From assembly GCA_903899015.1 (NCBI GenBank), contig CAIUHP010000100.1:1-64000 (forward strand): 64,000 nucleotides of DNA. Reading direction: 5' to 3'. The translations under genes and the position numbers were made by a program. The DNA is from an uncultured Armatimonadota bacterium. Its GTDB lineage: Bacteria > Armatimonadota > Fimbriimonadia > Fimbriimonadales > Fimbriimonadaceae. Of this stretch, positions 51,117-62,845 are shown in pieces. Below the pieces are notes generated by a model. It was not told the DNA's origin, searched no databases, and saw nothing but the letters and a program-made list of their open reading frames with translations. Within the stretch, counting starts at the first letter, position 1, and every line of letters begins with the position of its first letter.

Positions 51117-53303
51117 TTAATGCTTGGGATCGCCGTATAGGACACCTCGCCCATTCATTCCGATGTAAACCCGACCGTAAATGCGTGGGTCTCCAATAAT
51201 GTGGTCCATCGTTCCAAAACCGTGTGCTGCATCCGTAATGCAAATCCATGATTTGCCCTCGTCATCAGAACGAAAGGCCCCTTCTACTCCGTTCACCCCT
51301 CCAATGAGGAAAATCGAAGGATAGTTACGTCCTGGTGCGGCCTTTCCAAACCCAAAAGTGCTTACTAACGAGGTTGTCGCAAGCGCGTTGGGTGCCTCTG
51401 GACCCACTTTCATGCCGTCGAATCGAAACAGGTGGTTACTAACCGCAAGCCAGCACGCCCCATTCATTCCTGGGACTGTGCGAAGCACGGCCGTTCCTGC
51501 CGGCAACGCGACTTCCACTTTTTCGAAAGACTTTCCGCCATTGGTGCTTCGATAAAAACTCCCCTCGTTGCCAAGGTGACCGAATCCAAAGAACAAGTTC
51601 GGATCAACCCGATCGGCGACCACCATCAGTTCCTGGGGACCTCCCTCGCAAAGAGTCCAAGTCGAGCCAAAATCTCTTGAGTAGTACGCACGCTGCCGAG
51701 ATGGCGTCCATACGATTGTTCTCCCTTCGGCAGAAATTGCAACGTGTCCACTTCCCCGATTGGCGGGTGGCTCCGATTCAAAAGGTTGCCAGGTCTTTCC
51801 ACCGTCGGTCGAGAATCCTCCGTGACGAATTCCGTTTCCGGCGCGTCCTACCCGGACCATCACGTCAGGATTTAGTTCGGCGAAATCAACGCTGTCCGTG
51901 TTATTGAAGAGTGGGTTAGACTGCATCCCCTCTCTCGGAGCGACTTTGAAATTATCGTGACGAAAGCCTCCGATGTCTCCAAGCGCACTGTAAATATGCG
52001 CACCTTTCGGTGGCGACATAAGATCGATCACCGCCGTTTCTTCAAGCCCTTGTGCTCGTACCGTCCAATGAGTCGGCTTTCCTGACAGGCCAGGCGTGGC
52101 ATCGTCGGTTCCCCAAATAGTGGCTCCAGTGCCAAAGAGAATGCGACTTGGTTGAAACGGATCGATTTGCACTGTTCCCATCCACCAGCCAAACTTAGGC
52201 GCTTTTTGGCCCCAGTTCAAAAAGGGAGATCCCGAGCTATCCATTTGGGCAGTGGATTTTAGCGATGTCCAGGCTGTGCCGTTATCTCGTGTGAGGAACA
52301 CATCGTCCCCATCTGCCCAGCGATCCAAGGTGGTCACCGCAAGCACGTTTGGCTGCTGGGGAACATTTGAAAGCCCGGCGTAACCAAAACCTTTCGAAGC
52401 AGTCGGCCGAACCGGGGTTATGTCAATCCATAGGGACTGCTTCGTATCGAACTTCCAGACCGCTCCATTCGAGACTCCGTTGGGGCCAGGTCCATTGCTG
52501 TACGTTAAGACAAGTTCGCCAGTAGGAGTCATGAGACCGTGGTGGGGGTAAACACCGGTAGGTTGGCCCGGAACGGTTTGCCAAGTGTCGCCACCATCTT
52601 TGCTCACGACTAAGCCGGCTCGGGTTGATGCAACTGCGGCATAGATGGTTGTCGATCCCTTCCCTTTGGTCCCAGTCGAAGGATCGAACACTTCGAAACT
52701 AACTCCGATTCGGTTGTTGACGCCTTCCGTGGAGAGTCCGTCGACTTTATTCCAAGTGGCTCCATAATCGCCGCTACGCCAGAGACCATCGGTCCTCGAT
52801 CCATAGAGAAGGTGACTACCATTATTAGGATCGACAGCGATGCGCTCTCCGATCGAGCGGCCGTCTTCGTTTCCGCCCATTTTGAAGGGCATATCCGTCC
52901 GCTTAAAAGTTCGTCCCTGATCGGTCGAACGAAGGATTGCTCCGTTACTTGCGAAACTTCCTAGGTAAGTCCCACAAGCTAGGTAGAGCCGCTTGGGATC
53001 GCCTGGATCTAGCCCAATGCTCTCGACTCCGTACAGGTTCCAATCGGGTCGTTGAATCCAATCCATCAACGGGATCCAATGGTGGTTGTGGGGGTTCCAC
53101 CGGTATGCCCCGCCAATGTCCGTACGGGCGTAGACCAAATCCTTCTCAGCAGGATGATAAAGGATTCCACTGACGAAGCCACCGCCAACGATTGTGACGT
53201 TGTCCCATTGATACGACTGATGCTCTACTTGAGCTTGGACAGAAACACCCCCAAGCATCAAACCGGTCAATCCTAGAAAAGTCGCCGTAACAATGATCTT
53301 CAA
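51117..53303 (-). CDS. Secreted GH74 xyloglucanase
   Basis: This 728-residue extracellular enzyme is built from two seven-bladed beta-propellers. The N-terminal GGGFVSGILYHPAEKDL, VYARTDIGGAYRWN (with a conserved Asp of the GH74 active site) and NLYGVESIGLDPGDPKRLY are close to family 74 xyloglucan-specific endo-glucanases and oligoxyloglucan hydrolases. BNR-like Asp-box repeats (SxDxGxTW) recur throughout. A signal peptide (IIVTATFLGLTGLMLGGVSVQA) follows a TTG start with GGAGGAG seven bases upstream. It is divergent from a GH13 gene. Confidence 0.9.
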   Translation of the reverse strand: MKIIVTATFLGLTGLMLGGVSVQAQVEHQSYQWDNVTIVGGGFVSGILYHPAEKDLVYARTDIGGAYRWNPHNHHWIPLMDWIQRPDWNLYGVESIGLDPGDPKRLYLACGTYLGSFASNGAILRSTDQGRTFKRTDMPFKMGGNEDGRSIGERIAVDPNNGSHLLYGSRTDGLWRSGDYGATWNKVDGLSTEGVNNRIGVSFEVFDPSTGTKGKGSTTIYAAVASTRAGLVVSKDGGDTWQTVPGQPTGVYPHHGLMTPTGELVLTYSNGPGPNGVSNGAVWKFDTKQSLWIDITPVRPTASKGFGYAGLSNVPQQPNVLAVTTLDRWADGDDVFLTRDNGTAWTSLKSTAQMDSSGSPFLNWGQKAPKFGWWMGTVQIDPFQPSRILFGTGATIWGTDDATPGLSGKPTHWTVRAQGLEETAVIDLMSPPKGAHIYSALGDIGGFRHDNFKVAPREGMQSNPLFNNTDSVDFAELNPDVMVRVGRAGNGIRHGGFSTDGGKTWQPFESEPPANRGSGHVAISAEGRTIVWTPSRQRAYYSRDFGSTWTLCEGGPQELMVVADRVDPNLFFGFGHLGNEGSFYRSTNGGKSFEKVEVALPAGTAVLRTVPGMNGACWLAVSNHLFRFDGMKVGPEAPNALATTSLVSTFGFGKAAPGRNYPSIFLIGGVNGVEGAFRSDDEGKSWICITDAAHGFGTMDHIIGDPRIYGRVYIGMNGRGVLYGDPKH

Positions 53304-53450
53304 CAGTTAGCTCCTCCGTGAACTTCGCCATCCCAAACAAACGGTGTTTAAGATGATGATTTACCGATATTATCTGCTGAAAACGCACGTTATCATCCAA
53401 TTCGGGACTATTGAGGCTTCAATTGCATGCGGTAAACCTCAAATTCGACG
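53304..53450. promoter_or_regulatory. Divergent promoter region of GH74 and GH13 genes
   Basis: The 147-bp space contains TGATTTACCGATATTATC (53357-53374), which resembles the palindrome in front of the GH31 alpha-xylosidase gene: 12 of the first 14 positions agree. It may be a binding site of a shared regulator; this is suggestive only. Confidence 0.35.
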
Positions 53451-54974
53451 ATGCTTACCCGCTTGCTTTGCCTAACCTCGGTCGCATTGGCCTCTGTTGC
53501 TTGTGCGGCATCAACTACTCAGGCTCACCCTCTGGAAAGTGAAATCGTCTACCAAATCTTTCCCCGAAGCTATCGCGATAGCAACGGAGACCGTAACGGG
53601 GATTTCAACGGAATCATTAAGAAATTGCCCTATCTCAAACGGATGGGCATCACATCCATACTGATCAATCCCATATTTAAGGCCCGGGAGTACCACAACT
53701 ATTTCGCGGACAATTTTTTCAATGTCGACCCGGCATTCGGCTCAAACTCGGACTTCTTCCGCTTCATTCAAACCGCGCATAGCCTAAGGCTAAAGGTCAT
53801 CCTCGACATGGAAATTCAATATGTCGCAGACAAGCACCCGTGGCTGGCGGCCACATTGAAAGATCCTCAATCTTCCCTTGCAAGAAATCTTTGGACCAAA
53901 GGGTCGGCCTTCTACGATTTGAATCTTAATTGGTGGGGTGGCGCGAAAATCAAAGTCGCCGCCATCAACCCCGACTCGCCAGCAGTTCTCGAGTGGGCCA
54001 AAAGCATTTTTCGTTTTTGGGCTGCGCCAAACGGACATCCTCAACACGGAGTCGATGGCTTCCGAATCGATCACATGATGGACGACTTGGACAATCTTCA
54101 TGTCAAAACTCGTATGCTGTCCAAGTTTTGGCTCCCCATCGAGCAAGAAATCCGGGGCATCAAACCGACTGTTTTTTTCTTGGCCGAACAATCAGATTGG
54201 GGGACTGGATCAGATCATTTCAAGAAAGCGAACGTCGACGCTGTCTATGGATTTCCGCTCTACTTCGCCATCAAATCACTCCAAAAAGAAAAGATTACTC
54301 GGGTGATCGAAACCTCAGTAAAGGTTTGGGAGCCGAGGACAACTCAATTCAACTTCATCGAAAACCATGATGTTTCGCGATTCGCAAGTATCGTGAAGAA
54401 CGACTCCCGATTGCTTCGGCTAGGAGCGGTCTTGAATTTGACGCTCAAAGGTACGCCACTCATCTATTACGGTCAAGAGCTAGGCATGAAGGGTGTCCAA
54501 GGTAAATGGAATAGCGACGCCAATGACATTCCCGTCCGATTGGCATACCGCTGGAACCGGAAGATAAATGCCCCGGGAACGGCCAATTTTTATCGTGGCA
54601 CGGGTCCATGGGACAACCGCGAATTTGAAAGCGACAACGACGGCATTTCGGTAGAAGAGGAAGATAATCGTCCTGATTCGCTCCTCAATTTCTACCGCCG
54701 CCTTATTAAGCTTCGCCAAAGAAGTCCCGCATTGGCAATCGGAACGGAAGAGGTGGTGCCGACCACCAATTCTTCCATTCTCATCATCAAGCGGGCTTGG
54801 GGCAAGTTCCAGACATTGATCATCGTCAACCTATCCGCCCAATCTCAAACGGTTTCCATTCCTACCCGCCACTTCACGCGAAACTTGATGACCGGGCATG
54901 CTCTCAAAACCAAAATGCTTCGCCTCTCGAGCTATGGATTCAAACTTTTAGGAGTCACAACTCCTGACCGATAG
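53451..54974 (+). CDS. Secreted GH13 alpha-amylase family enzyme
   Basis: This 507-residue exported enzyme has a lipoprotein-like signal (LTSVALASVACA). It has the GH13 TIM barrel with YQIFPRSYRDSNGD, the nucleophile Asp in GFRIDHMMDD (near 200), the acid/base Glu in FFLAEQSDW (near 245) and FIENHDVSRF with the transition-state Asp. The first conserved region, normally DxVxNH, reads DMEIQY and lacks the His. It should act on starch-like alpha-glucans, as hydrolase or transglycosylase. It shares its promoter region with GH74. Confidence 0.87.
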   Translation: MLTRLLCLTSVALASVACAASTTQAHPLESEIVYQIFPRSYRDSNGDRNGDFNGIIKKLPYLKRMGITSILINPIFKAREYHNYFADNFFNVDPAFGSNSDFFRFIQTAHSLRLKVILDMEIQYVADKHPWLAATLKDPQSSLARNLWTKGSAFYDLNLNWWGGAKIKVAAINPDSPAVLEWAKSIFRFWAAPNGHPQHGVDGFRIDHMMDDLDNLHVKTRMLSKFWLPIEQEIRGIKPTVFFLAEQSDWGTGSDHFKKANVDAVYGFPLYFAIKSLQKEKITRVIETSVKVWEPRTTQFNFIENHDVSRFASIVKNDSRLLRLGAVLNLTLKGTPLIYYGQELGMKGVQGKWNSDANDIPVRLAYRWNRKINAPGTANFYRGTGPWDNREFESDNDGISVEEEDNRPDSLLNFYRRLIKLRQRSPALAIGTEEVVPTTNSSILIIKRAWGKFQTLIIVNLSAQSQTVSIPTRHFTRNLMTGHALKTKMLRLSSYGFKLLGVTTPDR

Positions 54975-55183: not shown

Positions 55184-55283
55184 GCCTTATAATGGCCTCA
55201 ATGGCTGATTCATTGGGATGTCATCAATGCAGTTTTTGTAGCGAAAATCATCCCAGGTGCGTAATCCATTGACGAGAATCCGA

Positions 55284-55832
55284 ATGAGCAGTAACGAAGT
55301 TCAGGCAGCCCATGAGGCAATTGATCGAGGCGACATTGATGGTGCACTCCACCACATAAACAATCTCTCGATTGCTGGCCACGCACGAGAAGTCGATGAA
55401 CTTCAGCGTAGAATCTGGCAACTCAATCAGAGGGCTCGCCAGAGAAACCTCAACCTTCAAGTTTACGCATTTGCGACCGGCGTGCTTGGATATGCGTTGC
55501 TCTCAACTCAATCTCCCGCTGCCTGGGGACCTGCGGTTTGGGGAGTGATTGCCCTTGTCGCCATACCGGTTATGGTTGGCATCTTTGCCGGAAACAGCCT
55601 CATTGGAATCGAGAAATCCAAACGGTTTTGGAGGTCATTCTTCATTGCCGGTGGCTGCATCGGTCTTTACACATTGATCGGCATGGCGCTTTCAAGGTCG
55701 AAGATGGAGTCAGCCGATAAGTCGATGGACGTTGTCATTTTCCTTGCCGTGATGTTGGTTCACAGCTTGGTAGCAGGTGTAGTTGCCGGATTCACTGGCA
55801 CCTTGATCCAGATTAAGGCGAGAGCAATTTGA
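55284..55832 (+). CDS. Multi-pass membrane protein of unknown function
   Basis: This 182-residue protein has a soluble N-terminal helical part (AAHEAIDRGDIDGALHHINNL) and four predicted membrane helices (about 58-74, 84-108, 112-138 and 150-178). I see no catalytic motif. The frame opens at 55257, but the ATG at 55284 is more likely. The stop overlaps the start of the next gene by four bases (55829-55832), so the two are translationally coupled. It probably forms a membrane complex with the downstream fusion protein. Confidence 0.7.
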   Translation: MSSNEVQAAHEAIDRGDIDGALHHINNLSIAGHAREVDELQRRIWQLNQRARQRNLNLQVYAFATGVLGYALLSTQSPAAWGPAVWGVIALVAIPVMVGIFAGNSLIGIEKSKRFWRSFFIAGGCIGLYTLIGMALSRSKMESADKSMDVVIFLAVMLVHSLVAGVVAGFTGTLIQIKARAI

Positions 55833-58144
55833 ATATTTATTGGCACAAAGTTGGCGATGATGCCAAAGTACTGTACATCGACGGAAATCTTCAATTTGAT
55901 TCACGCGACGAAGCCGTCTACCACGAGAGCCTTGCATTACCCGCTCTCTGTTTAGCGGACAAACCTCAGTCGGTATTAATTTGCGGCGGTGGAGATGGGC
56001 TCGCCCTTCGAGAAGTTCTCCGGTTCCCTGGCATCACGGATGTCACGCTTATCGATTGCTCCCCCGAAGTTCTTGATCTGGCAAGATCGGAATTCGCCGA
56101 ACTGAATGCCCATTCACTAGAAGATTCACGGGTTAAAGTGGTGGTCGCGGATGCCCTTGAATATCCGTTTGAGTCGTCACGATTTGACGCGATCATCTGC
56201 GACTTTACATTTCCAACAACCCAGGAGAGTGCCCAAGGTTTCACCGTCGAATGGTATCAAAAACTGAAGCATGCCCTTCGTCCCGGTGGCATGATCGCCA
56301 TTAACTCGGTTTCCCCTCAGAACACTCCCGCAGCATTTGCTTGCATTGTGGCCACCGTCAAGGCTTCTGGCCTCTTTACTCTGCCCTACCGAGTGTGTAT
56401 TCCCTCCTTCCGAGATCATGGCTTTGGAGCCTGGGGATTCATATTGGCGTCTCAGTCTCAACTCACGATCAAGCGATTGCAAGCGATCCAATGCCCTGTT
56501 CCGACGCGGCAAGTCGCTCTTGGTAGTCTCGAAAAGGGAGCCCATTTCTCAGATAAGGACCGGGCTGGTTTTCACTTTGCGCCGGTCAATCGAAGAGAGA
56601 ATCCGGTGCTTCAAAGGCTCCTTCTCGACCCAGAAATTCCCGGTCGAGATGCCAAGGTGATTCCTCCTCCCGAGTTTCCCCACCTCATCGATCATCTTGA
56701 GGTCAACCACCCTTACCACTCTCGCGCGATGATTGAGACGCTTGCGGAACAAATTGCCGGCTCACTCAAGCATATTGATCTGCACAAGCTAGTGGTCGAA
56801 TTATCCAAGCGAGCCAAGCTCCTACCTCAACGCATTCTTGAGGAGTTGGAAATCCTACGGTCCTACTTGGCGAGCACGGTGCTTGATTTGGAAATCTGGG
56901 GCAAATGGGCTGCACGGTTGTTTGCGACGGTACTGATCGTCATGACCATCGCAAATTCGATTTCACCGGATCCAGCTTTTGCTAAGGGGCATGCTGGGTT
57001 AGGACATTCCAGTTTCTCTCGGGGATTCTCTGAGCATGAATCGTTTGGAGGTGGCGTGTCCACTCGAGTTTCTGCTCCAATTTCAAGTCAAGGATTTCGA
57101 TCCACTTATGGCTATGATCCTGTTGATATTTACGGATATCACTACACACCGCGCGTTTATATCTATAACGATTACAGCGGCTATGGTGGGGGCGGCGGAT
57201 ATAGTGGGGCCGGGGGAAGCCGAGGAACTCAGCCAACCAATGGCCACCAACCGCACCAAACTATGGGCCACAAGCCTTTGTTTGTCCTTGATGACGATTT
57301 AGTGGCGATGGATAACGGGGACTTTGTCGTCTCCCTTTCCGAAAATGCGATCCTAGTAGTGAGCCAAGGCGCCGTGAACCTCGTGGATGTTAAGACCGGA
57401 AAGAACCTCGTTCCCGTCTTTGCCGAGCCCAAGCTTTTCAGTGAAATCAGAGCCGAAGTGTCGAGTCAAGCGGGTGACTTAGATCACGAAGTTGCCGTTC
57501 GACGAGATTGGCTATCTTGGGCTGGTTGGACTTCGGAATTCTTCGGCACTGTGAAAGCGGACAACGCGGAATATCTCAACTTACAAGACCTAAAACGCCG
57601 ACTAGGAGGAGCAGTCAAAAAGTTAGGCACGAGTTCAGAATCAAATGTCATCAACCTGGAAGATGGAGCAATAGAACTTTTCGTCGGATGTCATATCCTG
57701 TCTGACAACCGAATCGCTCTTTACGGTCCAGGCGGAAAGGTAAGTACAAGCGACGGTACCTCCATGGTGCTGCCGTCAGGTCACAAGATTTCAATTGATC
57801 CCGATCTCAAAGCGGCTCTGGTCTCTGTGATGAAGAAGATGATTAAGGAATCAGATCAAGACATCGCATCTGACCAAACGGACCTTCAATCTCTTCAAGC
57901 TGAACAGTCGTCAACCGAGAATGACCTTCGCGAATACCAAAACATTCAAGTGCAGAATAGCTATGATCCAGGTTATGAAGTTGACTACGGAACTGACTCA
58001 ATTCCTGTAGAACAAGCGATTCAACAAACTCAAGCCGATCTCGCGTCGATCATCCAAGAGCAACGGCAACTTCAGCAAAGCATTGCAGCGAACCAGGAGC
58101 ATCGCTCCCGTTTTGCGTCCGCACTTGAATCCTGGAGTAGCTAG
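55829..58144 (+). CDS. Spermidine-synthase-like enzyme fused to membrane anchor, Gly-rich region and coiled coil
   Basis: This 771-residue protein is an unusual fusion. Residues 1-240 are a polyamine-aminopropyltransferase-like domain: AKVLYIDGNLQ, EAVYHESLALPAL, ICGGGDGLALRE (nucleotide-binding), VVADALEYPF and DAIICDFTFP where the catalytic Asp is expected, though the usual D-x-x-D/SDP loop is altered. After a helical linker, residues 357-377 form a membrane helix ending in AFA, then a low-complexity Gly/Tyr/Ser region (452-465 nearly all Gly), a folded part (480-670), and a Gln-rich coiled coil (671-771). The start is a TTG overlapping the upstream stop. Confidence 0.8.
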   Translation: MNIYWHKVGDDAKVLYIDGNLQFDSRDEAVYHESLALPALCLADKPQSVLICGGGDGLALREVLRFPGITDVTLIDCSPEVLDLARSEFAELNAHSLEDSRVKVVVADALEYPFESSRFDAIICDFTFPTTQESAQGFTVEWYQKLKHALRPGGMIAINSVSPQNTPAAFACIVATVKASGLFTLPYRVCIPSFRDHGFGAWGFILASQSQLTIKRLQAIQCPVPTRQVALGSLEKGAHFSDKDRAGFHFAPVNRRENPVLQRLLLDPEIPGRDAKVIPPPEFPHLIDHLEVNHPYHSRAMIETLAEQIAGSLKHIDLHKLVVELSKRAKLLPQRILEELEILRSYLASTVLDLEIWGKWAARLFATVLIVMTIANSISPDPAFAKGHAGLGHSSFSRGFSEHESFGGGVSTRVSAPISSQGFRSTYGYDPVDIYGYHYTPRVYIYNDYSGYGGGGGYSGAGGSRGTQPTNGHQPHQTMGHKPLFVLDDDLVAMDNGDFVVSLSENAILVVSQGAVNLVDVKTGKNLVPVFAEPKLFSEIRAEVSSQAGDLDHEVAVRRDWLSWAGWTSEFFGTVKADNAEYLNLQDLKRRLGGAVKKLGTSSESNVINLEDGAIELFVGCHILSDNRIALYGPGGKVSTSDGTSMVLPSGHKISIDPDLKAALVSVMKKMIKESDQDIASDQTDLQSLQAEQSSTENDLREYQNIQVQNSYDPGYEVDYGTDSIPVEQAIQQTQADLASIIQEQRQLQQSIAANQEHRSRFASALESWSS

Positions 58145-58145
58145 A

Positions 58146-59153
58146 TTGAACGTCGCTTGGCGACCCGAAAGGATTGGCGAGGTCGAGGAGTCTGATCTTC
58201 TTGCTGGACTTAATTCAGCTTCGGGATTCATGCAGTCCTCATTCTGGTCCGAATTCAAACGGCGAGAAGGGCATGAAGTTGAAAGGGTCGTCTGTGAAAA
58301 AGGCGATAGCCGAGTTGGATCAGCCGTCTTGTTGAGCTACCCACAGTCAGCTGGCGCAAGCTTTGTCCTTTGTCCGGAGGGGCCAGTCTTGCCCTGGCAC
58401 GATCAACAAATGTGCCGCACTGCATTGAGAAGCCTCGTGACTCACGTAAACGCTAAACCGAACGTACTTGGCCTTCGGATAGAGCCTCACCTCCCCACCC
58501 CTTTACCGAGCCTCCTTCGAAATTGGTCCAACGCTCCCACGGACCTTACTCCTGCTGACACGTTAATCTTGGATTTGACGCTAACGGACGAGCAAATCCT
58601 AACTCAATCTCATCCCAAGTGCCGGTACAACCTCAAGGTCGCGGAGCGCCACGGTGTCGTCGTGACTCGCCATACCGGGATGGAATTGGCTCACGCATTT
58701 TACGGTTTGCTGCTGGAAACGTCGAACCGAACGGGGTTTTTCGTCGAACCATTCGGTTTCTTCTTAAATCTGCTCTCAACCCTGCTCGAACGGCAGGCTG
58801 GAGAGCTTTACGTCTCTCGCCATGACGGCGAAATTCTGGCCGCAATTCTTGTCGTTCGTTTTGGTCGACGCGCGACCTACCTGTACGGTGGGTCCAGTTC
58901 AAAGAATCGCCATGTGATGCCGGTCTACCCCCTTCATCTTGCGGCAATCCAAGGTAGCCGCGAACATGGTTGTGTTGAATACGATTTCTATGGCATCGAC
59001 GCAACCGAGCGGCGCGACCACCTTTATGCGGGAATCACTCGATTCAAGAAGCAATGGGGAGGTCAAGTTCAGCGTCGCATTGGTGCGCGCGATTATGTCT
59101 TTTACGACCGTCTAGCCGACCTTGTAGTTGAGAGACTAGGGGACTTCCCATAG
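58146..59153 (+). CDS. FemAB-like aminoacyl transferase (GNAT fold)
   Basis: This 335-residue cytosolic protein resembles the FemA/FemB/FmhX family, which attaches amino acids from aminoacyl-tRNA to peptidoglycan precursors. FMQSSFWSEFKRREG near residue 30, PKCRYNLKVAERHGV (the family's core basic helix), YLYGGSSSKNR and YDFYGIDATERRDHLYAGITRFKKQWGG are typical. The frame opens at 58083 inside the previous gene; I chose the TTG at 58146, one base after its stop. It completes a three-gene operon with the membrane protein and the spermidine-synthase fusion. Confidence 0.8.
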   Translation: MNVAWRPERIGEVEESDLLAGLNSASGFMQSSFWSEFKRREGHEVERVVCEKGDSRVGSAVLLSYPQSAGASFVLCPEGPVLPWHDQQMCRTALRSLVTHVNAKPNVLGLRIEPHLPTPLPSLLRNWSNAPTDLTPADTLILDLTLTDEQILTQSHPKCRYNLKVAERHGVVVTRHTGMELAHAFYGLLLETSNRTGFFVEPFGFFLNLLSTLLERQAGELYVSRHDGEILAAILVVRFGRRATYLYGGSSSKNRHVMPVYPLHLAAIQGSREHGCVEYDFYGIDATERRDHLYAGITRFKKQWGGQVQRRIGARDYVFYDRLADLVVERLGDFP

Positions 59154-59336: not shown

Positions 59337-61352
59337 TCACCAGATTGGATGCATCCCAACCGGATTGGGAACATGAAACGCTTTCCAAAACTCAGGCACG
59401 TTTTGCAAAGCCCCTTTCACCCGATATTCCGGTGGTGAATGAGGATCGTGCTCCAGACCGAGTTGCATCTGCTCGGGACGAATCTTGCTTCGATGTATCT
59501 GGCCAAACGCGACAAAGAAACGCTGTTCTGGGGTCAGGCCCGCAATAGTTGAAGAGGGATGCATCGATTCCTGATGCTGAAAAGCCTTATAGGCAAGTTG
59601 AAGCCCACCTAGGTCAGCAATATTCTCCGCCAATGTTCTCAAGCCACTTATATGCTGTCTGGGTGTCGCTTGATAGCCGTCGAATTGGCTTACCATGCTC
59701 CCTTCGAATTGTCTAAACCGCTTTTCATCGGTCGGAGACCACCAGTCGTTTTGGTTCCCTTCGGCATCGATTTTCCGTCCTTCATCATCGAATGCATGCA
59801 TGAATTCATGCCCGACAACAGCGCCAAGAGAACCGTAGTTCGATGCTTGATCGCCTTCCACCGTGAAATAGGGTGGCTGCAAAATGCCTGCCGGAAGAAT
59901 CAGATGATTCAAACTCGCACTATAAAATGCGTCGACTCGATAGGGACTACAGTTCCACTCTGTGCGATCAACCGGATTCGCCAAGGCATTGAGGGACCTC
60001 TGAAACTCAAACTCCCGAGTCCGAAATGCATTGGACCAAAACGAATCGGACTTCATCACGAGTCCCTCCGTTTTGCGCCACCGATCAGGATAGCCCACAC
60101 TCACATGAATCTGGTTCAGCTTGTCAAGAGCTTTTGACTTCGCATCCGGACTTAACCAAGCCGCATCTGAAATCGAAGATCGAAGTGCTTCTCGAATCCT
60201 GCTTACCATCGCCAGGGCAGGCTCTTGAGAGGAAACACCGTATTGAGTTCGGATCAATAGCTGTCCAAGCTCGGGGCTGAGACAAACATCAGTCTGAGAT
60301 AAAACAAACTGCTCGCGACTCTCGATCTCGGACTGGCCATTAAGAGTCCTCTGCAAATCAAAGAGGCATTCTCGAAATGGACGAGACAAATAGGGGGTCG
60401 ATGCCGAAATGAGCGTCCATCGAAGATAGTTCTTCAGGTCCGAAATGGTCGCACTTTGAAGGATATCCCCGAAGGTCGCCAGGTAACTTGGATTATCCAC
60501 GGTTACCGACTTAGGTAGCGGAAGCCCCAAGTGATCGAAGTAGATCCACCAATCCACTTTGGGAACCGCCGCACCCAGCTGCCACATCTTCATCTTGCCA
60601 ACCGGCTCGCTGAGAGGTTTAGCCCCTCCGACAATTCCAATTGCTCGCGCGAGTTTGGATTCAATGGAGACGACGCTTGCAGCAGAACTCGCGAGAGTGT
60701 CCGCGGAGTCCCCAAGCAGTCGGAACATCTGTTCCACAGTCCTTCTCAAATGTGACTGATATTCGAGTCCCTTTGGCCCACTAGCGGCATACCACTCGGG
60801 TCGGGTCAAACTGAGGTTTCCCGTGCCCAAACAAATTAAGCGGTGGGTAGCGTCGCTCGGATCCATTTGGAAACGAGCTGAGAATCCCGCGAATACGGAC
60901 CACCGGTGTAACTTGCCAAGTTCAGCCATCACATCGCGCCGGGTCTCAATCGCCTGGATTCTCGCTAGTTCAGGTTCCACTGGCCTCGCGCCCAATTGTT
61001 CCGCAAGGTTGCGATCCATTCCTACCCGGTAGAAAGTGCCGACGATCTGTTCGATCGAACCCATCTCAACGTTTGGATTCAAGGATGTTGAGCAAATAAT
61101 CTGCTGCATGATCCCCGCATTTTTCTGTCTCGCTTGACTCGATGCTGACGTCTGAGATTCGGAGGGAGCGATCTGGATATTGTCGAGCCACGTGCCATTG
61201 GCAAATCGGTAGAAATTGACCGTCGGCTGCACTGTTCGGTCGAGAAACAATGGACTCATACCATGTGGTTCATTGATCTCAACCAATGGGCGAGCAGTCT
61301 GTGTGAATGCCAATGCCAGACATGCAAGCGGGCCGATGGGGCAAAGGGGCAC
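59337..61352 (-). CDS. M13-family zinc metallopeptidase (neprilysin/PepO-like)
   Basis: This 671-residue exported endopeptidase has an N-terminal signal segment, VNAFYSPS-like VDAFYSASLNHLILPAG, the zinc motif VVGHEFMHAFDDEGR (HExxH, near residue 517), the third ligand in ENIADLGGLQLAY (near 575), and a C-terminal ending of the family. These enzymes hydrolyse short peptides outside the cytoplasm. Met replaces the more usual Ile/Thr within the zinc helix. The start is a GTG five bases after TAGAAT, another likely leaderless gene. Confidence 0.9.
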   Translation of the reverse strand: MPLCPIGPLACLALAFTQTARPLVEINEPHGMSPLFLDRTVQPTVNFYRFANGTWLDNIQIAPSESQTSASSQARQKNAGIMQQIICSTSLNPNVEMGSIEQIVGTFYRVGMDRNLAEQLGARPVEPELARIQAIETRRDVMAELGKLHRWSVFAGFSARFQMDPSDATHRLICLGTGNLSLTRPEWYAASGPKGLEYQSHLRRTVEQMFRLLGDSADTLASSAASVVSIESKLARAIGIVGGAKPLSEPVGKMKMWQLGAAVPKVDWWIYFDHLGLPLPKSVTVDNPSYLATFGDILQSATISDLKNYLRWTLISASTPYLSRPFRECLFDLQRTLNGQSEIESREQFVLSQTDVCLSPELGQLLIRTQYGVSSQEPALAMVSRIREALRSSISDAAWLSPDAKSKALDKLNQIHVSVGYPDRWRKTEGLVMKSDSFWSNAFRTREFEFQRSLNALANPVDRTEWNCSPYRVDAFYSASLNHLILPAGILQPPYFTVEGDQASNYGSLGAVVGHEFMHAFDDEGRKIDAEGNQNDWWSPTDEKRFRQFEGSMVSQFDGYQATPRQHISGLRTLAENIADLGGLQLAYKAFQHQESMHPSSTIAGLTPEQRFFVAFGQIHRSKIRPEQMQLGLEHDPHSPPEYRVKGALQNVPEFWKAFHVPNPVGMHPIW

Positions 61353-61357
61353 GCGAA

Positions 61358-61363
61358 ATTCTA
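61358..61363 (-). promoter_or_regulatory. -10 box of a leaderless promoter
   Basis: The minus strand reads TAGAAT, five bases, then the GTG start of the M13 peptidase gene. Confidence 0.4.
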
Positions 61364-61438
61364 CCGATCAATTCGGTTCTATATTTGAATCTCAATTCGA
61401 AATAGCCCAATTGAATCCAACTCCCGCAAGAATCCCAT

Positions 61439-61444
61439 TAGACT
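61439..61444 (+). promoter_or_regulatory. -10 box of a leaderless promoter for the GH26 gene
   Basis: TAGACT is followed by six bases (GTCGCT) and the ATG at 61451. No ribosome-binding site fits. Confidence 0.4.
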
Positions 61445-61450
61445 GTCGCT

Positions 61451-62845
61451 ATGTCTGCCCTGTTATTTCTCTTGAGTAGTCACCTTCTTTTTGCTGGTCA
61501 ATCCAGACTGCCAATTAAGTTGGAGGCAGAAGATGCTGAACTTATGGGACCAACCATTTCCAAAACAAGAACTGGTTACTCTGGTTCGGGATACATTACC
61601 GGCTTTACGAAAGAGGGCGATGCTGCGACGCTCCGCACCAAGGCGACTGGCGGAATCTATGAAGTAAAGATCCGCTACTGCGCTCCAGGTGGCCCTAAAG
61701 GTTTCGGCCTCAGAGTAAATGGTTCCGAGATATCGGGAATGTTCCCAGCAACCGGAGACAAGTTCAATACCATCATCGCTGGGAAAATTGAGTTAAAGAG
61801 CGGGTCCAATATCATTGAGATCGAAAAAGGATGGGGCTATTTCGACGTCGACTTCATCGAACTCGTTCCAACTCAGATTCAGCAAGACTTATGCAAAGTG
61901 CCCCAAGCCCTGGTGGATAGTCAGTCAACTCAGGCGACTAAGAATCTATTCAAGCGTCTTTCTGCCAGTTATGGACAAAGGACTCTAAGCGGGCAATACG
62001 ACATCAATGACACCTCGTACATTGAGCAGACGGCAGGTGTGACGCCCGCTATATTTGGAAGCGATTTCATGGACTACTCTCCTTCACGAGTTGAACATGG
62101 ATCAAACACTAAGGACATAACGGAAAGAGTCATCAAACGGGCCAAGTTAGGTCAAATCATTACGATGTCGTGGCACTGGAATGCTCCAACCGATCTCATT
62201 GACAAGAAGATCAAGGATGCAGCCGGAAAGGAGATTGATGCCTCGTGGTACAAAGGCTTCTACACCAACGCGACCACGTTTGATCTAGCTCAAGCACTTG
62301 CTGACCCGAAGACCGAACGGTACAAGTTGCTTATTCGAGATATCGACGCAATCGCGATCCAGTTAAAGAAATTCTCAGATGCGGGAGTACCCGTCTTATG
62401 GCGCCCTCTTCACGAAGCAGAGGGAGGCTGGTTCTGGTGGGGGGCTAAAGGGCCTCAACCGTTCGTTCAGCTCTGGCACATTCTCTACGATCGCCTAACG
62501 AAACATCACCAACTCCACAACCTCATCTGGGTGTTTACGGTTGGCTCAAACCCGGCGTGGTATCCCGGTGACAATTATGTGGACGTGCTCGGCGTCGATG
62601 CCTACCCGAGTGACCACTCGGACCCATTGAGCGGAATATGGGAAGACCTCAAGCGCCAGTTCAACGGAAAGAAATTACTCTCCCTTACCGAATTTGGCGG
62701 CGTGCCGGATGCTCCTAAAATGCATCGATTCGGTGTTGATTGGTCTTATTTCGTTTCTTGGCCCGGGCAAGTCAAGGCACCAAGCACTTCCGTTTCAACA
62801 CTCAAGCGAATCTATCAAGACAAGTCCGTCATCAACAAACGTTGA
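61451..62845 (+). CDS. Secreted GH26 beta-mannanase with N-terminal CBM35
   Basis: This 464-residue extracellular enzyme has a signal peptide (LLFLLSSHLLFAG) and a CBM35-type carbohydrate-binding module over residues 20-140, with AEDAEL, GYSGSGYITGF and YFDVDFIELVP. The GH26 barrel then runs from about 150 to 460. The acid/base Glu is in LWRPLHEAEGGWFWWG and the nucleophile Glu in LSLTEFGGVP. The substrate should be beta-mannan or galactomannan. GH2 beta-mannosidase at 42 kb would finish the products. The gene precedes the GH31 alpha-xylosidase by 107 bases. Confidence 0.9.
   Translation: MSALLFLLSSHLLFAGQSRLPIKLEAEDAELMGPTISKTRTGYSGSGYITGFTKEGDAATLRTKATGGIYEVKIRYCAPGGPKGFGLRVNGSEISGMFPATGDKFNTIIAGKIELKSGSNIIEIEKGWGYFDVDFIELVPTQIQQDLCKVPQALVDSQSTQATKNLFKRLSASYGQRTLSGQYDINDTSYIEQTAGVTPAIFGSDFMDYSPSRVEHGSNTKDITERVIKRAKLGQIITMSWHWNAPTDLIDKKIKDAAGKEIDASWYKGFYTNATTFDLAQALADPKTERYKLLIRDIDAIAIQLKKFSDAGVPVLWRPLHEAEGGWFWWGAKGPQPFVQLWHILYDRLTKHHQLHNLIWVFTVGSNPAWYPGDNYVDVLGVDAYPSDHSDPLSGIWEDLKRQFNGKKLLSLTEFGGVPDAPKMHRFGVDWSYFVSWPGQVKAPSTSVSTLKRIYQDKSVINKR

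Follow-up and report, generated by a model that had tools for sequence, protein, structure and literature searches.

A recurring bacterial operon pairs a membrane-anchored SpeE fusion with a FemX-like transferase, and DUF2617 is a probable S-adenosylmethionine decarboxylase

The 64,000-nucleotide stretch of an uncultured Armatimonadota genome analysed here (the window) carries a three-gene operon that encodes a small membrane protein, a fusion of a spermidine-synthase-like (SpeE) domain to a membrane helix and a long C-terminal tail (hence 'C-tail' SpeE), and a FemX-like aminoacyl transferase of the FemAB family. This SpeE-FemAB operon recurs in other bacteria and is akin to the membrane operons already known to combine SpeE with DUF350, DUF4178 and DUF2617; its pairing with FemAB is not known to have been described. 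The near-strict partnership with a FemX-like enzyme, together with altered acceptor sites and kept donor sites, points to an envelope molecule that bears both an amino acid and an aminopropyl group, and the operon probably makes an amine-bearing compound of the cell envelope. Our best explanation, which we regard as evenly balanced between right and wrong, is a two-enzyme station at the membrane, where SpeE would aminopropylate and the FemX-like enzyme would aminoacylate one shared envelope acceptor. By computation we show the gene content, the C-tail clade, a conserved coupling of the genes, donor sites that are kept, usual acceptor residues that are lost, a decarboxylase that is available and a fold match of DUF2617. 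The genes of the window are as follows.

55284..55832, + strand: gene 1, a 182-residue membrane protein with an ATG start
55829..58144, + strand: gene 2, the 771-residue C-tail SpeE fusion, with a TTG start
58146..59153, + strand: gene 3, a 335-residue FemX-like aminoacyl transferase, with a TTG start

Conservation of the SpeE-FemAB pairing

A search for the part of gene 2 that follows the SpeE domain recovered it from 10 of 291 Armatimonadota genomes, always in a protein that also carries SpeE. FemAB follows gene 2 in eight loci of this phylum (the window, L054, L055, L058, L060, L061, L062 and L063), which is eight of nine where the neighbour can be read; in L059 the contig ends inside gene 2 and the neighbour is undecidable. 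A scan of 84,980 species for relatives beyond the phylum recovered full-length or shortened ones in Herpetosiphon (Chloroflexota), cyanobacteria, Geomonas, Elusimicrobia and Methylomirabilota, as well as many SpeE proteins with seven N-terminal transmembrane helices (N-7TM). The C-tail architecture, with no N-terminal and one C-terminal transmembrane helix, is present at L071-L081 and L084, and FemAB stands beside SpeE in 12/12 of these loci outside Armatimonadota. The pairing has been kept in at least six bacterial phyla and holds for 20 of 21 decidable loci. The initial annotation had named what would speak against its proposal, namely a C-terminal part that in most relatives lacks the synthase domain or the FemAB neighbour; we looked for this, and the proposal withstood it, since none of the ten lacks SpeE and FemAB is present at the frequency just given.

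A FemAB of this type occurs in 0 of the 60-odd N-7TM or plain SpeE loci. In a tree of 109 SpeE domains, from which L117 and L001 are left out, the 22 C-tail members lie on one side of a branch with a Shimodaira-Hasegawa-like approximate likelihood ratio test (SH-aLRT) value of 100, and the N-7TM family, without a FemAB neighbour, is their sister. Outside Armatimonadota a frequent gene order is DUF4178 - C-tail SpeE - FemAB - DUF350 (L072, L073, L076, L077, L079 and L084), with a gene for S-adenosylmethionine (AdoMet) decarboxylase, speD, in or near the locus; Pfam searches of representatives confirmed DUF4178, DUF350, AdoMet_dc and FemAB. Cyanobacterial C-tail SpeE proteins have short tails, with a second hydrophobic stretch at the end. 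L103 was considered as an N-7TM locus with FemAB and set aside, the FemAB-like gene there scoring only 5.5e-6 at a distance of about 4 kb.

Within the window genes 1 and 2 overlap by 4 bases (TTGA) and 1 base separates genes 2 and 3, just as the initial annotation had placed these closely packed genes. The 4-base overlap is kept in L054, L055, L059 and L063, and L058 has a 2-base gap; genes 2 and 3 lie at most 22 bases apart in the window, L054, L055, L058 and L063. The recurrence of such overlaps and few-base gaps speaks for co-translation. Predicted promoter and terminator sites did not exceed the count in shuffled sequence.

The FemX-like transferase

Gene 3 matches the Pfam FemAB family over its full length (PF02388, E 1.2e-38), and its closest solved relative is FemX of Staphylococcus aureus (6snr, profile match 1.9e-40), which bears out its first description as a FemAB-type transferase. 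Two sites matter for its reaction.

58746..58751, + strand: E201-P202 of gene 3, at the place of R211 in FemX of W. viridescens
59043..59048, + strand: F300-K301 of gene 3, equivalent to F304-K305 of that enzyme and aligned to the FK of 6snr

In W. viridescens FemX, F304-K305 is essential and catalytic and R211 binds UDP-MurNAc-pentapeptide (PMC4964394). The catalytic Phe-Lys is invariant in 14/14 FemAB partners of C-tail SpeE, and the position of R211 is Glu in 14/14 and that of Y215 Phe or His, R211 and Y215 being features of W. viridescens FemX and not of the whole family. The change at R211 argues against a plain copy of the W. viridescens reaction.

One special case of the two-enzyme station takes the acceptor to be a peptidoglycan precursor, FemAB aminoacylating the stem peptide and SpeE aminopropylating it; the closeness to S. 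aureus FemX and the equivalent of K36, a Lys in 13 of 14 partners and an Arg in the other, agree with it, but the replacements at R211 and Y215 do not, and no peptidoglycan gene is linked to the operon in any locus read; we think it unlikely. The initial annotation had proposed a coupled modification of the envelope with an amine-bearing group, on the ground that FemAB enzymes modify peptidoglycan precursors. This idea is partly upheld: a coupling conserved in several phyla supports the functional link, and the Glu makes a target like that of W. viridescens FemX less likely. A second special case, improbable in our view, has a membrane lipid amine as acceptor, in the manner of MprF, which forms aminoacyl-lipids, with an added aminopropyl step. 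The enzyme is held at the membrane, it has DUF350 or gene 1 proteins as membrane partners, and MprF too uses a double-GNAT aminoacyl-tRNA transferase; against this, the FemX-type enzymes known to us act on peptides.

Gene 2: architecture and active site

Gene 2 combines the following parts.

55829..56614, + strand: SpeE domain with the aminopropyltransferase fold, residues 1-262 (PF01564, PRK03612, 1uir_B)
56201..56215, + strand: DFTFP motif, D125-P129, aligned to DLTDP of T. thermophilus SpeE
56888..56962, + strand: membrane helix, residues 354-378 (hydropathy of homologues, AlphaFold model)
56966..56989, + strand: PDPAFAKG, residues 380-387, with the signature PDxx[FY][AG]KG
56990..57259, + strand: Ser/Gly/Tyr-rich low-complexity region, residues 388-477, predicted to be disordered from the predicted local distance difference test (pLDDT)
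57260..58141, + strand: folded tail, residues 478-771, with pLDDT mostly 80-94

Residues 28-210 match Pfam Spermine_synth (PF01564, E 2.5e-29), and NCBIfam PRK03612 matches with 220 bits over profile positions 265-510 only, which is its SpeE half. A fold search of the whole chain against the PDB was filled by matches to the SpeE domain, among them 1uir_B with Z 33.4 over 264 residues at a root-mean-square deviation (rmsd) of 2.2; phmmer found no PDB relative of the tail by sequence. The AlphaFold model, built with 13 homologues, is confident for residues 1-262, of low confidence for the transmembrane helix (pLDDT is low at 351-364) and disordered over 369-477, with pLDDT below 50 across most of the Ser/Gly/Tyr-rich stretch. 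Residues 478-770 are mostly confident and are modelled as a beta part, helical hairpins and a C-terminal coiled coil. Pfam and the model together uphold the 771-residue fusion of a synthase-like domain, a helix, a Gly/Tyr-rich part, a folded part and a coiled coil as first described. The SpeE domain is presumed to be cytoplasmic and the folded tail extracytoplasmic. In 20 of 20 C-tail sequences checked the PDxx[FY][AG]KG signature directly follows the helix, and the residues before its KG resemble a signal-peptidase I site (after AFA), so the tail may be cleaved off by that enzyme and released.

Across 13 aligned C-tail members the donor-site residues are invariant: GGGDG (G53-G57), D76, D108 and the catalytic D125. 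The DFTFP motif keeps this catalytic Asp, but where the acceptor motif DxxD has its second Asp it carries Phe. All 22 C-tail members have V, F, Y, C or H at this position and none has Asp or Asn; the other 87 SpeE rows have Asp (62), Asn (24, a count that takes in Armatimonadota paralogues) or Gly (1). To judge from these alignments, the SpeE domain retains its donor side and its acceptor side is altered. Two additional SpeE genes are present in the genome of the window (G000), one of them (L002, contig C45) with a speD 2 kb away. Armatimonadota paralogues of this contig C45 type (L002, L146) have DLPNP, with Asn replacing the second acceptor Asp.

A different reading of the same residues is that the SpeE domain acts as sensor or methyltransferase and forms no aminopropyl product. 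The loss of the second acceptor Asp would suit it and methyltransferase Pfam models likewise match gene 2, but the best matches by both sequence and fold are aminopropyltransferases, the catalytic Asp is invariant, and an AdoMet decarboxylase or DUF2617 is present in 10/10 Armatimonadota operon genomes; we hold it to be distinctly unlikely. Least probable of all is ordinary polyamine synthesis, with gene 2 making spermidine at the membrane beside an incidental FemAB, since the SpeE fold, the donor motifs and a SpeD in the genome that speak for it are set against a FemAB partner kept across several phyla, the universal loss of the acceptor Asp, the two further SpeE genes, and N-7TM fusions that reportedly fail to complement a speE deletion. 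That failure is attributed to Li et al. in 2019 (cited in PMC11237479), who reportedly also proposed that the 7TM SpeE family has a role outside polyamine synthesis. Mycobacterium smegmatis has been reported to lack polyamines (PMC8503589), in agreement with such a role for SpeE proteins of this sort.

Gene 1

The product of gene 1, for which an upstream GTG at 55257 is a possible alternative start, has a helical N-terminus of 60 residues followed by three to four hydrophobic segments. It had been called a four-helix membrane protein; a membrane protein it is, and four helices are plausible, but hydropathy shows only three clear segments in the window and two to four in homologues. A search of Armatimonadota with gene 1 returned the same ten genomes as gene 2 plus two weak matches, and in 9/10 of these genomes the homologue adjoins gene 2. 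The operon of genome G107 is split over two contigs (L056, L057), DUF2617 and gene 1 being on one and gene 2 on the other. Pfam searches gave no family for gene 1, and the idea of a hidden DUF350 gained no support, with no Pfam match and an hhalign probability below 1% against a small set of four DUF350 sequences. In Herpetosiphon a protein of about 280 residues with four transmembrane helices and no known family is encoded between FemAB and SpeD (L071:9169-10008, L081:9181-10017); it is perhaps the counterpart of gene 1, and no similarity between the two was detected.

Donor supply and DUF2617

An aminopropyltransferase needs decarboxylated AdoMet, and either SpeD or DUF2617, never both, is present in all ten Armatimonadota operon genomes. 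In seven of them a DUF2617 gene is linked upstream of gene 1, and AdoMet_dc is missing from exactly these seven; the remaining three have AdoMet_dc and no DUF2617. SpeD is encoded elsewhere in the window genome, on contig C45, and in genome G216 it sits at the place of DUF2617 in the operon. In Armatimonadota as a whole DUF2617 occurs in 9 genomes and SpeD in 125, with an overlap of 0 (Fisher's test, 0.012). Among 50 genomes with SpeE from the scan of species, 13 have DUF2617 without SpeD, 1 has both, 32 have SpeD only and 4 have neither (Fisher's test, 8e-8), counts that are confounded by kinship in that 12 of the 13 DUF2617-only genomes are actinobacteria. The complementary pattern recurs in actinobacteria, haloarchaea, Armatimonadota and one Binatia genome; among 14 control genomes, Corynebacterium glutamicum and Haloferax volcanii have SpeE and DUF2617 without SpeD, and no genome with SpeD carries DUF2617. 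Nine of the 12 C-tail genomes outside Armatimonadota have SpeD, within the locus in L071, L072, L073, L076, L077 and L081. This distribution suggested, before any comparison of structures, that DUF2617 replaces AdoMet decarboxylase. The genes concerned are these.

L055:3378-3938, L058:1043-1552, L061:11238-11771 and L063:10920-11453: DUF2617 (PF10936) genes; also in L151 and L158-L171

The AlphaFold model of DUF2617 has a pLDDT of 91, and its best match in the PDB is human AdoMet decarboxylase (1msv_B, Z 10.0 over 144 of 170 residues, rmsd 3.4), followed by 1jl0_A (Z 9.8) and the Trypanosoma brucei enzyme (6.6), the first unrelated protein standing at 4.7. Foldseek alone placed AdoMet decarboxylase only 48th (E 0.12), so the fold match is good but remote. 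AdoMet decarboxylases depend on a pyruvoyl Ser, a proton-donor Cys, an activation Ser and a processing His (PMC1282579, PMC3975893). S48 and C66 of DUF2617 are each conserved in 17 of 18 members and H149 in 18 of 18, with T133 also conserved; S48 stands at the start of strand 4, C66 after strand 5 and H149 before a Pro, and the four fit those roles in that order, the correspondence to S68, C82 and H243 being read from motif and strand order rather than from a residue-level structural alignment. HMMER and hhalign detected no sequence relationship of DUF2617 to AdoMet_dc beyond a short HTYP/HTWP match: the AdoMet_dc profile matched none of the 18 members, hhalign gave 6%, and Pfam and PDB searches gave no AdoMet decarboxylase. 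What carries the claim is therefore the fold, the pattern of motif residues and the distribution. One Gemmatales genome has SpeD as well as DUF2617 (L171:1480-2028); in this DUF2617 Gly replaces S48, Ala replaces both C66 and T133, and the other conserved residues (H49, E62, P124, H149 and P152) are retained, so that it looks like a copy freed from catalysis.

From distribution, place in the operon, fold match and the Ser/Cys/His pattern, DUF2617 is probably an overlooked, diverged and compact AdoMet decarboxylase. Actinobacteria, haloarchaea and others have spermidine-synthase-like enzymes for which we know of no AdoMet decarboxylase; the assignment, if true, would close this gap and, if confirmed, would be weightier than the operon itself. 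Earlier work describes DUF2617 no further than as a predicted enzyme of beta-sandwich fold in which His, Asp and Glu are conserved (PMC11237479).

A model for the operon

Both enzymes keep their donor side, change their acceptor side and travel together, and the simplest reading of this would be a shared, unusual acceptor. In the two-enzyme station that we propose, at the inner face of the cytoplasmic membrane, decarboxylated AdoMet would be supplied by an AdoMet decarboxylase, that is, by SpeD from elsewhere in the window genome, by SpeD heading the operon in one relative, and by DUF2617 in seven. The SpeE domain, kept at the membrane by the single helix of gene 2 and by the gene 1 protein, would move the aminopropyl group onto a membrane-bound acceptor and not onto a free diamine. 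Before or after this step, the FemX-like enzyme would take an amino acid from aminoacyl-tRNA and attach it to an amine on that acceptor. The amine-rich product would end up on the outer side of the membrane; there the secreted gene 2 tail may bind, sense or organise it. We infer both activities, the shared acceptor, the envelope location, the order of steps and the role of the tail.

Several observations weigh against this proposal. The loss of the second acceptor Asp could also mean lost catalysis. The distribution is patchy, the operon being present in only 2 of the 20 genomes that belong to the window's own genus, so it is often gained or lost. In genome G107 (L056) the 382 bases that come after gene 2 contain no FemAB. 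Finally, L075, L078 and L079 (two Pseudanabaena and one cyanobacterial metagenome-assembled genome) have SpeE-FemAB, and neither AdoMet_dc nor DUF2617 could be detected in them. SpeD of cyanobacteria is divergent and low-scoring, which makes a miss possible, so these genomes may hold either such a divergent SpeD or a third enzyme. The wider proposition, that an envelope pathway couples aminopropylation and aminoacylation on one acceptor in several phyla and that DUF2617 is the missing AdoMet decarboxylase of Actinomycetota (mycobacteria and corynebacteria included), haloarchaea and Chthonomonadia, is put forward tentatively, and we would give it somewhat less than an even chance.

Genomic context

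The flanks of the operon in the window (51120-54971 and 59340-62842) hold secreted or catabolic genes, for a BNR/sortilin-like repeat protein, an alpha-amylase, an M13 peptidase and a GH26 hydrolase with CBM35. A search for spread by plasmids gave matches only to the SpeE part of other proteins, and no place reached 80% coverage.

Relationship to known systems

Membrane-linked relatives of spermidine synthase are widespread. Their operons with DUF350, DUF4178, DUF2617 and DUF4247 are known from comparative genomics, in which FemAB goes unmentioned (PMC11237479), and a full-text literature search, subscription literature excluded, turned up no paper in which spermidine synthase occurs together with FemAB. 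The initial annotation knew of no such combination, in line with this search, but it understated a pairing that recurs in several phyla.

DUF2617 resembles the class 2 AdoMet decarboxylases (human 1msv/1jl0) in predicted fold and, to judge by motif and strand order, in the placement of Ser, Cys and His, but it is half as long, has largely lost the helices and does not match them in sequence. Gene 3 shares the double-GNAT family and the catalytic Phe-Lys with FemX of S. aureus (6snr) and W. viridescens, and differs in its acceptor site, where Arg has become Glu and Tyr has become Phe or His, and in its link to SpeE. With the soluble triamine/agmatine aminopropyltransferase of T. thermophilus (1uir/3anx), C-tail SpeE has the fold (Z 33, 264 residues) and donor motifs in common, whereas the second Asp of DLTDP is replaced and a membrane helix and tail are added. 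Also close is the N-7TM aminopropyltransferase (NF002956/PRK03612), PRK03612 being the closest NCBIfam model: both have a SpeE domain attached to the membrane and SpeD or DUF2617 alongside, with DUF350/DUF4178 also alongside in the cyanobacterial, Geomonas and Elusimicrobia loci. Unlike N-7TM SpeE, however, the C-tail protein has no N-terminal transmembrane helices but a single C-terminal one, the FAKG motif and a secreted tail, and it combines a changed acceptor DxxD with a FemAB that nearly always adjoins it.

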